A stretch of DNA of 10,000 nt. Source: Flavobacterium sp. GTDB taxonomy: Bacteria; Bacteroidota; Bacteroidia; Flavobacteriales; Flavobacteriaceae. Positions 3,398 through 6,139 of the stretch are shown here, one piece after another (position 1 is the first letter of the stretch; each line of letters begins with the position of its first letter). The stretch is taken from contig NZ_JAIWOF010000003.1 of NCBI RefSeq assembly GCF_020217025.1, positions 1-10,000 of the forward strand. The letters run 5' to 3'. Made by a program: the position numbers and the translations under genes. The notes below the pieces were generated by a model, which saw only the letters and a list, made by a program, of their open reading frames with translations, did not search any database and had not been told where the DNA came from.

Positions 3398-4144
3398 ATG
3401 AAAGCCATTATTATAGACGACGAAAAGAGAGCACGAATTTCGCTTGCCTTACTTTTACAAGAATATTGTCCAGAAGTTACCGTAGTAGCCGAATGTGAAA
3501 ATCTACCAGAAGGCATAAAAGCCATCAGAAAGCAACAACCTGATATTGTTTTATTAGACATTGAAATGCCAGGTCATAGCGGCTTAGAGTTATTGGACTT
3601 TTTTGATGAAAACGAAATTAATTTTTCAATTATTTTTACTACTGCTTATAATGAATACGCCTTAAAAGCATTCAAATTTTCGGCAGTCGATTACTTATTG
3701 AAACCAATAATCCCAGAAGAATTAGCTGAAGCCATTCAACGCGTTGCCAAACAAAAACAGCGTTTTGAAAATTTTATAACCTTTAAAGAAAACTTACAAC
3801 AAGAAAGCTTAACTAAAATAGCGGTCCCGTCAGGGAATACATTGTTATTTTTAGACACCAATAAAATCATGTACATTAAAGGAGAAGGCGCTTATTCAGA
3901 AGTATTTTGCAATGATGGAAACAAACAATTGGTTAGCCGAAACTTAAAGAATTTCGAAGATATTTTATGTTCTGATTCCCGATTTTTACGTATTCACAAA
4001 TCTTATATCGTAAACTTCAACTTTGTAACAGCTTTCAACAAATCAGATGGTGGAAGTATTGAATTAGAAAACAAAATACAAATTCCGGTTTCTCCTGATA
4101 AATCGCAAACTATTCTAAATCAAATTCAGATTATAAAACGTTAG
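3398..4144 (+). CDS. LytTR-family response regulator
   Basis: This 248-residue cytoplasmic transcription regulator is the likely partner of the upstream kinase. Residues 1-120 are a receiver domain: acidic pocket Asp7-Asp8, phospho-acceptor Asp54 in LLDIEMPGHSGLEL, the conserved TTA at 81-83, and Lys102 in the LLKP motif. Residues 140-245 are a LytTR DNA-binding domain, recognisable by the strand around IMYIKGEGAYSEV (157-169) and by FLRIHKSYIVNFNFV (196-210). The ATG lies one base after the kinase TAA (TAAAATG), implying cotranscription and coupled translation. Its TAG stop overlaps the aroA stop on the other strand. All receiver residues are intact, so phosphorylation-dependent control is expected. 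Target genes cannot be read from the sequence, although the repeated CGTTAA cores upstream of the kinase could indicate autoregulation. Confidence 0.94.
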   Translation: MKAIIIDDEKRARISLALLLQEYCPEVTVVAECENLPEGIKAIRKQQPDIVLLDIEMPGHSGLELLDFFDENEINFSIIFTTAYNEYALKAFKFSAVDYLLKPIIPEELAEAIQRVAKQKQRFENFITFKENLQQESLTKIAVPSGNTLLFLDTNKIMYIKGEGAYSEVFCNDGNKQLVSRNLKNFEDILCSDSRFLRIHKSYIVNFNFVTAFNKSDGGSIELENKIQIPVSPDKSQTILNQIQIIKR

Positions 4145-5394
4145 TTTATTTCAGAGTTTTCAATTCCAACTAGCTTCAAATCTTTCCAAAAATCTGGATA
4201 GGATTTAGAAACCACCTCAGCTTGATTAATTGCAATTGGAACTTCCAAAGCTAAAGGCGCAAAAGCCATGGCCATTCTGTGGTCTTGATAAGTTGAGATT
4301 GAAATATTTTCCTTAATTCCAGAAGAAGATTTCAAATGTAAAGAATCATTAGTTACTGAAATTTCAGCTCCTAATTTTGTTAGTTCTATTTTTAAAGCTT
4401 CTAATCGATCCGTTTCTTTGATTTTTAGCGTATGTAATCCTGTTAAATCGCAACCTATTCCTAATCCAAAACAGGTTACCGCAATGGTTTGAGCAATATC
4501 AGGACAATTATTTAATTGGTAATTGACAATTGACAATTGACAATTTTTTGTTTTAGAAATCGTAATTGAATTATCACTATTAAAAGTAGTTTCAACTCCA
4601 AAATCTTTATAAATATCAATCAAAGCACTATCGCCTTGAAGACTATTCTTTTTATAACTTGAAAGTGTAACTTGAAAACCTATTTCAGACAAGGCAACAA
4701 TAGAATACCAATAAGAAGCAGATGACCAATCGGATTCAATGGTTAAAGGAGTTGGGTGTTGGGTGTTGGGTGTTGGATTTACTTTAATTACATTATTTTC
4801 AAAAGAAGTCATCACTCCAATTTCATTCAATAACGCTAAAGTCATTTTGATGTATGGAATTGAGGTGATTTCGCCTTCAAGTGTTAACTCTAAACCATTT
4901 TCAAGCTTTGGAGCAATTAATAAAAGTGCCGAAATATACTGGCTACTCACATTAGCTGGAAGCGAAACTTTATTCTGTTTTATTTTTTTTCCTTTAATAC
5001 GGATTGGCGGGAAACCTTCGTTTTCTTCATAAGTAATTTCGGCTCCTAATTCATTTAAAGCGTCAACTAAAATTTTTATCGGACGCTCTTTCATTCTTGA
5101 CGAGCCTGTTAAAACCACTTCTTTTCCTTCTTGAATAGAAAAATAAGCGGTAAGAAATCGCATAGCTGTTCCTGCGTGGTGAACGTCAATGAGTTGTGAA
5201 TGGTGAATAGTGAATAGTGAATTTAGTGCTTTTTGCATCACTTCCGAATCATCAGAATTGGAGGTGTTTTCTAAAGTTAAATTTGGATACAAAGCCTGCA
5301 ACAACAACAATCTATTGGTTTCAGATTTTGAACCCGTGATTGTTACTTTTCCCTTTTCCCTTTTCCCTTTTCCCTTTTCTAAATGTAAATTCAT
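4141..5394 (-). CDS. aroA: 3-phosphoshikimate 1-carboxyvinyltransferase (EPSP synthase)
   Basis: This cytoplasmic enzyme of the shikimate pathway joins phosphoenolpyruvate to shikimate-3-phosphate. From the ATG at 5394 it has 417 residues, a normal family length. Active-site motifs are present in order: GSKSETNR (Lys23, Ser24, Arg28), HAGTAMR (73-79), RMKERP (100-105), SSQ (150-152), the catalytic Asp299 in CPDIAQ, KETDR with Glu327 and Arg330, QDHR (370-373) and Lys397 in SKSYPDFW. Compared with the E. coli NAGTAMRP segment, Asn is His73 and Pro is Phe80, while the glyphosate-related Gly is kept (Gly75). A longer in-frame start at 5460 would overlap the exporter gene by 67 bases and add a non-family leader, so I chose 5394, where TAATG overlaps the exporter stop by one base. 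Four heptanucleotide arrays interrupt low-conservation segments (residues 6-16, 58-66, 206-216, 284-294). All key residues are intact, so the enzyme is probably functional. Confidence 0.95.
   Translation of the reverse strand: MNLHLEKGKGKREKGKVTITGSKSETNRLLLLQALYPNLTLENTSNSDDSEVMQKALNSLFTIHHSQLIDVHHAGTAMRFLTAYFSIQEGKEVVLTGSSRMKERPIKILVDALNELGAEITYEENEGFPPIRIKGKKIKQNKVSLPANVSSQYISALLLIAPKLENGLELTLEGEITSIPYIKMTLALLNEIGVMTSFENNVIKVNPTPNTQHPTPLTIESDWSSASYWYSIVALSEIGFQVTLSSYKKNSLQGDSALIDIYKDFGVETTFNSDNSITISKTKNCQLSIVNYQLNNCPDIAQTIAVTCFGLGIGCDLTGLHTLKIKETDRLEALKIELTKLGAEISVTNDSLHLKSSSGIKENISISTYQDHRMAMAFAPLALEVPIAINQAEVVSKSYPDFWKDLKLVGIENSEIN
4514..4545 (-). repeat. Heptamer array AATTGAC inside aroA
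   Basis: On the plus strand there is one variant unit AATTGGT (4514-4520), three perfect AATTGAC units (4521-4541) and a partial AATT (4542-4545). Read on the coding strand as GTCAATT it encodes aroA residues 284-294, NCQLSIVNYQL, immediately before the catalytic CPD motif (Asp299). The coding orientation is open in all three phases, whereas the opposite orientation contains TGA. Confidence 0.9.
4751..4778 (-). repeat. Heptamer array GTTGGGT inside aroA
   Basis: Three perfect GTTGGGT units (4751-4771) are followed by one unit with a single change, GTTGGAT (4772-4778). On the coding strand (ACCCAAC) they encode aroA residues 206-216, NPTPNTQHPTP, in the loop before the ESDWSSASYW motif. Both strand orientations are free of stops, which also creates a spurious plus-strand ORF here. 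Confidence 0.9.
5196..5223 (-). repeat. Heptamer array GTGAATA inside aroA
   Basis: Four consecutive units lie here on the plus strand: GTGAATG, GTGAATA, GTGAATA and GTGAATT. The coding strand encodes aroA residues 58-66, NSLFTIHHS, just before the HHAGTAMR motif. The coding orientation (TATTCAC) is stop-free in every phase; the opposite orientation contains TAG. Confidence 0.88.
5351..5379 (-). repeat. Heptamer array CCCTTTT at the 5' end of aroA
   Basis: Four perfect CCCTTTT units (5351-5378) plus one base, preceded by a degenerate unit (5344-5350). On the coding strand they encode the basic stretch EKGKGKREKGK at aroA residues 6-16, directly before the VTITGSKS strand that carries the substrate-binding Lys23 and Ser24. 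The first units begin only about 15 bases after the start codon. Confidence 0.92.
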
Positions 5395-5720: not shown

Positions 5721-5728
5721 ATTTTTAT

Positions 5729-5815
5729 TAAGGTAAAAGGAAAAGGGTGAAGGGTGAAAGGAAATTCAAAATCAACAAGTGACCTTTTACCTTTAACCCT
5801 TTACCATTAACCTTA
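5729..5815. repeat. 33-base inverted repeat built of heptamers
   Basis: The arms are 5729-5761 and 5783-5815, each 33 bases, with a 21-base loop; 27 of 33 positions are complementary. Each arm has a seven-base rhythm: the left reads TAAGGTA, AAAGGAA, AAGGGTG, AAGGGTG, AAAGG, and the right reads CCTTTTA, CCTTTAA, CCCTTTA, CCATTAA, CCTTA. It fills most of the gap between the exporter start (5720) and the pyrophosphohydrolase stop, and the right arm includes that stop codon. The transcript could fold into a long hairpin, but there is no U-tract after it, so a standard intrinsic terminator is not supported. It may protect an mRNA end or be a remnant of the repeat process seen in aroA. Confidence 0.75.
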
Positions 5816-6139
5816 TTTAAGTTTCTCGTTATTATGATGTCTATCGTGATCGCGTTTGGTTTTTAAATCCATTTTTTTATCAAAAGCGGCTTGTAAATCT
5901 ACACCTGTTTGATTCGCCAAACACAAAACTACAAAAACTACATCAGCAAGCTCTTCTCCTAAGTCTTTGTTTTTATCGGATTCTTTTTCGGATTGCTCGC
6001 CATAACGACGAGCTATAATTCGGGCTACTTCACCTACTTCTTCAGTAAGTTGAGCCATATTAGTTAATTCATTGAAATAACGAACACCATGTTCTTTAAT
6101 CCAATTATCTACTTCTTGTTGGGAATTTTTTATGTTCAT
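5813..6139 (-). CDS. MazG-like nucleotide pyrophosphohydrolase
   Basis: A 108-residue, all-alpha cytoplasmic protein of the single-domain MazG-like family, which hydrolyses nucleoside triphosphates to monophosphate and pyrophosphate, often as a house-cleaning function. The metal-binding signature is complete: Glu33, Glu34 and Glu37 in LTEEVGEVARII, and Glu63 with Asp66 in GEELADVVFVVLCLANQTG. The length is normal for single-domain members and shorter than the double-domain MazG of E. coli. The C-terminus is charged and His-rich (RDHDRHHNN). The ATG at 6139 lies one base after the stop of the upstream secreted protein gene, so they share a transcript despite unrelated locations. The exact nucleotide substrate cannot be read from sequence; dUTPase-like or canonical/non-canonical NTP activity are both possible. 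Confidence 0.9.
   Translation of the reverse strand: MNIKNSQQEVDNWIKEHGVRYFNELTNMAQLTEEVGEVARIIARRYGEQSEKESDKNKDLGEELADVVFVVLCLANQTGVDLQAAFDKKMDLKTKRDHDRHHNNEKLK

Follow-up and report, generated by a model that had tools for sequence, protein, structure and literature searches.

Short heptanucleotide arrays recur in four loops of Flavobacterium AroA, where they appear to be replaceable

Tandem arrays of seven-base units have been described in several bacterial groups. The available text of PMC4692102 reports GGGAATC arrays in Xanthomonas and GGGGA(T/C)T arrays in Nostoc that prefer four units and are mainly intergenic, that of PMC4679880 reports TAACTGA arrays in Beggiatoaceae, cyanobacteria and five Bacteroidetes, a few of them in open reading frames (ORFs), and the accessible part of PMC2700814 places four-unit GGGACCG elements of Geobacter metallireducens both within and between genes. 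Coding heptanucleotide repeats are described for neuO of E. coli K1, where, in the portion of PMC13001214 available, copy number runs from 3 to 53, 20 is the commonest and 42 of 64 genomes are in the off state. Other repeats in genes are palindromic: the Rickettsia palindromic elements are dispersed palindromes of 105-146 bp found in frame in conserved protein genes (PMC2229807, in part), and REP elements are short palindromes that, in the accessible text of PMC3733652, also lie in ORFs, at about the same recB site in two Xanthomonas species. Seven-base repeats should be hard to keep in genes, because each one-unit slip breaks the frame.

Here we analyse a 10,000-nt stretch of Flavobacterium DNA (the window) whose aroA gene, identified by profile matches to TIGR01356 (302.5 bits against a cut-off of 287.25) and PF00275 (269.4 against 22.8), carries heptamer arrays in four of its loops. 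The features, by position in the window, are as follows.

4141-5394, minus strand: aroA, EPSP synthase, 417 aa (TIGR01356 and PF00275); holds all four arrays
5346-5379, minus strand: array A, coding-strand unit GAAAAGG, 4.9 units
residues 6-16: loop A, EKGKGKREKGK, then VTITGSKSETNR
5188-5223, minus strand: loop B, residues 58-69, NSLFTIHHSQLI, then DVHHAGTA
5196-5222, minus strand: array B, units CACTATT, CACTATT, CACCATT, then CACAACT
4741-4779, minus strand: loop C, residues 206-218, NPTPNTQHPTPLT, then IESDWSSAS
4751-4776, minus strand: array C, coding-strand unit AACACCC
4510-4551, minus strand: loop D, residues 282-295, TKNCQLSIVNYQLN, then NCPDIAQT
4521-4545 (to 4513 with an imperfect unit counted), minus strand: array D, coding-strand unit AATTGTC
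5724-5820, no strand: imperfect inverted repeat, 38-nt arms, 79%, with heptamer-like units AAGGGTG and ACCTTTA; mostly intergenic

Tandem Repeats Finder places AATTGAC at 4521-4545 (3.6 copies), GTTGGGT at 4751-4776 (3.7), GTGAATA at 5196-5222 (3.9, with one mismatch) and CTTTTCC at 5346-5379 (4.9). Its other period-7 rows in the window, 5743-5758 and 5782-5814, are intergenic save for the last two bases, and weaker rows at other periods (scores 30-48) also occur, some of them coding. When periods 2-15 were scanned for exact arrays (minimum 16 nt and two units plus 2 nt), no period but 7 gave any, and period 7 gave the four in aroA and 5743-5758; segments scoring at least 10 at a lag of seven bases were the same four and one intergenic segment (5730-5758); at that score, lags 5 and 8-12 gave no segment in the window and lag 6 gave one. 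Dinucleotide-shuffled versions of aroA (500 trials) held a mean of 0.008 segments and a maximum of one, against the four observed. The first-pass annotation, made from the letters of the window, was therefore right that aroA holds four heptamer arrays and that the other coding regions of the window hold none of that period; the arrays have 3.6-4.9 units, and their number is far above the shuffles. It was also right that reverse strands of the AATTGAC-type and GTGAATA-type arrays carry stops while those of the other two, read off the sequence, have none, and that each array precedes a conserved motif (GSKSETNR, VHHAGTAMR, ESDWSSAS and PDIAQT, whose columns vary little or not at all across 44 aligned sequences). 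The inverted repeat at 5724-5820 has a REP-like shape and lies between a gene for a small multidrug-resistance-type protein and a MazG-like gene, upstream of the gene that precedes aroA.

The same four loops recur as array sites within the genus. Among the best 80 of 569 confirmed aroA loci, a sample for which the query loops themselves hold arrays and the search word VNYQLNNC spans loop D, 45 loci carry exact arrays of at least 19 nt within aroA, and all 78 such arrays map to loops A (19), B (23), C (15) and D (21). With mismatches allowed (lag 7, score at least 10), 63 of these best 80 loci carry 137 segments, 132 of which, from 58 genes, fall in loops A (38), B (37), C (26) and D (31); the remaining five are just upstream of the start codon and elsewhere in aroA there is none. 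Control lags of 5, 6, 8, 10, 11 and 13 gave only 0-4 segments in the same 80 genes, 15 of which have no lag-7 segment even at the laxer score of 9. Fifty-two segments are four units long and 52 are five units long (104 of 137), and the units found at one loop differ from species to species. The flanks of the 80 loci (747,402 bases) hold 22 exact arrays of at least 19 nt: 18 intergenic, one at an edge and three in ORFs. About 1.5 kb downstream of one aroA gene, an intergenic cluster of GTTTCAA/GTTTCAG heptamer arrays (L094:7682-7813) was noted; L084, L109 and L111 have related units at similar positions.

Searches at family and class level added 57 aligned aroA loci, 55 of them outside the genus, with 12 segments in total. 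One further genome of the genus Flavobacterium (L241) accounts for two of these, one of which is upstream of the start codon. All ten segments outside the genus lie at A-D; most of the 55 genes have no segment, and other lags gave 0-1 segments in the 57 loci.

In a predicted AroA model (mean pLDDT 69) a strand, a turn and a helix are repeated six times, with strands at residues 16-20, 66-70, 142-146, 217-220, 289-293 and 364-366. The arrays lead into predicted strands 1, 2, 4 and 5, array D running into strand 5 itself, and pLDDT is below 50 for the whole of loop A, five of the 12 residues of loop B and nine of the 13 of loop C, though not for loop D. On this model we propose that the arrays target a single type of position used four times, the lead-in to a beta-strand that is followed by an active-site motif; the loops would lie on the side far from the active site. 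A fifth aroA loop, near residue 357 and before TYQDHRMAM (that is, before strand 6), carries a long insert without a frame break in the alignment of L306, and L307 probably has one as well, because its partial match stops at residue 357 and its complete match exceeds the window's gene in length.

This concentration departs from the genomic background, where such segments are mainly intergenic. In 1.79 Mb from six genus genomes (the window's contig and the six aroA genes left out, N excluded), 21 lag-7 segments were counted inside the 1,451 ORFs that reach 100 codons (1,640 kb) and 62 in the roughly 145 kb outside ORFs. Several of the 21 are probably due to chance, because control lags give segments in these ORFs too (40 at lag 6 and 4-12 at the others), and some sit in 5' extensions. 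Compared with this coding sequence, aroA is about 100 times denser, with 137 segments (132 without those upstream) in the 102,867 bases (102.9 kb, measured from the upstream stop) of the 80 loci. Against flank ORFs of at least 250 codons from those loci the excess at score 9 is about 70 times (145 in 102.9 kb compared with 11 in 547.5 kb). Coding matches elsewhere include MnmE, a YggS-family protein, a GSCFA protein and a family-2 glycosyltransferase.

We think it fairly probable that heptamer arrays and small palindromes settle in, and replace one another within, permissive loops that precede active-site motifs, with selection keeping the frame and the hydrophilic orientation and with no phase switching. 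The four arrays of the window would then be part of a wider population of short heptamer arrays, mostly of four or five units, that together with palindromic repeats repeatedly occupy and displace each other in the permissive loops of core enzymes. Content might move between arrays through ectopic template switching or gene conversion, homologous recombination between strains may shift it as well, and variant units would spread locally; purifying selection would remove frameshifts, while the change of a loop would itself be near neutral. The sequences analysed revealed neither an enzyme for such movement nor a recombination tract.

The loops are mostly refilled rather than lengthened. In 81 sequences, loop A has 10-12 residues in 78, loop C 12-13 in 72 and loop D 14 in 67, and loop B has seven residues in 29, 12-14 in 44 and other lengths in eight; over all loops and relatives the span is 18-111 nt. 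The first-pass annotation had each array apparently replacing a variable loop, and the AroA alignment agrees for A, C and D, with their mostly constant length, and only in part for B, which has also been lengthened. Content alternates between heptamers and palindromic repeats with the length mostly held. Loop C is built from AACACCC units in the window, AATTCAC in L035 and AACCCGC in L038, always with 12-13 residues, and in F. sasangense (L032), L034, L039, L040 and L072 the same 12-13 residues are encoded by a palindrome that reads CHAELVSAS. A search with words picked by eye from the aligned loops found palindrome-type peptides at A-D in 3, 6, 15 and 6 of the 81 loops, and the palindrome core, with one mismatch allowed, occurs at seven places including aroA in the genome of L032 (G412), at one in G066 and at none in G413.

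These observations bear on purely local slippage, in which each loop would hold an old heptamer microsatellite whose variants spread by slippage and point mutation and never move between loci. Between the window and L032 the sole difference in loop A is the same G-to-C change in all four units, a concerted change as judged from the sequences; loop B is a mosaic of units, and the unit of loop D is common to the window, L032, L033 and L034, all of which local slippage would explain. In L052, loop B has 21 residues against 14 with similar units, which matches an in-frame gain of three units. The genome scan proposed by the first-pass annotation for its four units had a divided outcome: GTTGGGT is present at three places, and AATTGAC, GTGAATA and CCCTTTT occur as exact dimers in aroA only, so that these three are possibly local in origin, again as slippage would have it. 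Slippage should nevertheless change length in steps of 7 nt, yet A, C and D are mostly constant, and palindromic repeats fill these loops with little or no difference in length. AACCCGC, moreover, fills loops A, B and C of the L038 aroA and occurs at 11 other places in that genome. Slippage by itself accounts for loop A but not for units common across loci or for palindromes in loops, and we consider it a rather unlikely account of the whole.

The AACCCGC unit is dispersed within one genome. Two exact units match the L038 genome 25 times with overlaps, at 14 places, and are absent from G000, G066 and G412. Thirteen of the 14 places were read: three are intergenic, two are in short, doubtful ORFs and eight are clearly coding (three in aroA, two in a 2-oxoacid dehydrogenase acyltransferase and one each in methionine synthase (MetH), a family-2 glycosyltransferase and a BioF-like enzyme). 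In all eight the unit is on the coding strand. The four AACCCGC species may share ancestry. Within single aroA genes, a unit is common to two sites in 16 of 133 cases, against 3.2 in permutations that ignore phylogeny (maximum 12 in 5,000). The BioF-like protein of the L038 genome (L348:528-1739) also has a 73-nt imperfect heptamer stretch and a second array with AACCCGC units.

A stronger form of movement would be an active array-copying process in Bacteroidia that writes one currently favoured unit into permissive loops genome-wide, so that essential enzymes gain interchangeable cassettes that reassort between strains; we hold this to be unlikely. A putative dedicated writer that inserts arrays of a lineage-specific unit, perhaps a templated polymerase or a tyrosine transposase of the REP-associated kind, would fit a single genome-specific unit at the 14 places of L038 and the narrow size range of the aroA segments, yet several different units coexist in one gene, and of these two proposals it is distinctly the more doubtful.

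Cassettes also vary between strains. Among the window's AroA and 74 of the 120 proteins nearest to it (core at least 90% identical to the window; P0001 omitted as near-identical), clustering of the 75 sequences at 0.7 similarity gives 8, 6, 9 and 3 cassettes at A-D, which combine into 34 four-site haplotypes with four-gamete violations in all six pairs of sites. On a core tree of 121 proteins the minimum numbers of changes are 24, 22, 23 and 5 for 8, 10, 9 and 3 states, although metagenome chimeras and weakly supported branches may inflate both the haplotype and the change counts. Outside the loops, 51 further 12-residue windows were scored: 38 show one state only, 12 show between 2 and 5, and that at the C-terminus shows 10. 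At the level of protein sequence we read this as cassettes reassorting between strains, with many of the proteins coming from metagenome contigs and possibly chimeric.

Such a pattern, few discrete cassettes per site in many haplotypes beside a mostly single-state remainder, would be expected under diversifying selection, with the loops as exposed targets of an agent that binds AroA and the repeats as raw material for variants. Similar inserts are, however, carried by PrmC, MnmE, the BioF-like enzyme, MetH and the 2-oxoacid dehydrogenase acyltransferase; their presence in unrelated proteins points to tolerance rather than to a property specific to AroA, and this explanation is improbable. In prmC (best 30 loci, from 100 genomes with a match), segments occur in 20 of 30 loci, in 19 of which they lie in loops before ILDIGTG or NPPY, with varied units, and in one near the C-terminus only. 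In the bioF-like gene (TIGR00858 345 bits, under the cut-off of 426), 11 of 31 sequences have segments, ten in the loop before IYIVTESVF and one outside that loop only; in L380 the loop has an asparagine-rich stretch (NFNGNFNGNFNSNFNSND) that yields no lag-7 segment.

In the window's own genome, GTTGGGT is found in aroA, in prmC (PrmC_N match) and in a third gene that has neither a Pfam nor an NCBIfam match; the relative of this third gene in G066 has a different heptamer at the same site. A search for orthologues of array genes among related sequence gave two matches, of which the first carries a different heptamer at the corresponding site and the second has no segment. Two proteins that are 87% identical, L209:10494-11177 and L272:1260-1943 (the latter with no Pfam or NCBIfam match), have TPNSQLQTPNS and TPNTQHPTPNT at the same site. 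The suggestion that a heptamer-seeding process is confined to the aroA locus is thus not supported, given GTTGGGT in prmC and a third gene and the prmC and bioF-like loops of relatives. That aroA is the sole such gene was rejected on the prmC and bioF-like loops; aroA is extreme but not unique.

Under replacement within permissive loops, copies that persist should be those that translation tolerates, as the first-pass annotation had also supposed, and counts of orientation, stops and hydrophilicity agree. The 115 aroA segments examined comprise 48 units: if reversed, 24 of these would meet a stop in some phase, and six would do so in the coding orientation but for segments short enough to avoid it; of 20 units that are stop-free both ways, 18 are more hydrophilic in the coding orientation. 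The reading frame is likewise kept: each of the best 80 aroA loci (of 569) gives its match in a single frame, as do 11 of 12 suspect loci that were re-read (four of them cut by a contig end). The single frame break, in L312, a draft of about 590 contigs, is near residue 337 and off the arrays; an internal stop flagged in L014 (G126) is the terminal codon, and the aligned frame of L308 (G077) has no stop. Assembly artefact as the source of the arrays was considered and is thought unlikely, since the arrays are short and the same picture emerges from isolates and drafts of many origins.

The idea that one-unit slips toggle aroA off and on, which the first-pass annotation raised as phase-variable auxotrophy and which a unit length that is not a multiple of three and the coding heptamer switch of neuO (PMC13001214) would favour, is rejected as extremely improbable on this frame evidence, on the mostly constant lengths of A, C and D, and on arrays of mostly four or five units against the 3 to 53, with 20 commonest and 42 of 64 genomes off, given in the available text for neuO.

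Heptamers are thus a frequent filling of four loops of an essential enzyme, apparently exchanged with little change in length, and repeats of the genome appear to remodel the loops of core enzymes. The in-frame constraint allows the way in which repeats move, whether by slippage, conversion or insertion, to be read off, and heptamer loops provide a natural chart of where core enzymes are permissive; similarity between AroA loops in Flavobacterium says little about descent. Among the open-licence papers listed by literature searches, none reports repeats in Flavobacterium AroA, and heptamer arrays that recur in, and can be replaced within, fixed loops of an essential enzyme appear to be new.

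Set against the known systems, as far as the available texts describe them, the aroA arrays resemble the dispersed heptanucleotide arrays (PMC4692102, PMC4679880, PMC2700814) in having 7-nt units and few copies. The known arrays also stand at many places per genome, which holds for AACCCGC in L038 and, with three places, for GTTGGGT in the window's genome, whereas the other three units of the window occur as exact dimers in its aroA only. Those arrays are described as mostly intergenic and possibly regulatory, whereas the arrays of aroA fill fixed loops of an essential enzyme, and one loop holds different units or elements across species. With neuO, in the part of PMC13001214 available, they share heptanucleotide tandem repeats in a coding region, but neuO has off states and aroA has mostly four or five units and no off state seen at the arrays. 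The short palindromes in the aroA loops can be likened by shape and location to REP elements as described in the accessible portion of PMC3733652, being likewise short and inside an ORF. Like the Rickettsia palindromic elements in the accessible account of PMC2229807, the aroA repeats are dispersed and in frame within conserved protein genes; unlike those palindromes of 105-146 bp, the main inserts of aroA are heptamers in tandem, which span about 20-35 nt (in the window, 25-34 nt) and take the place of a loop of similar length.
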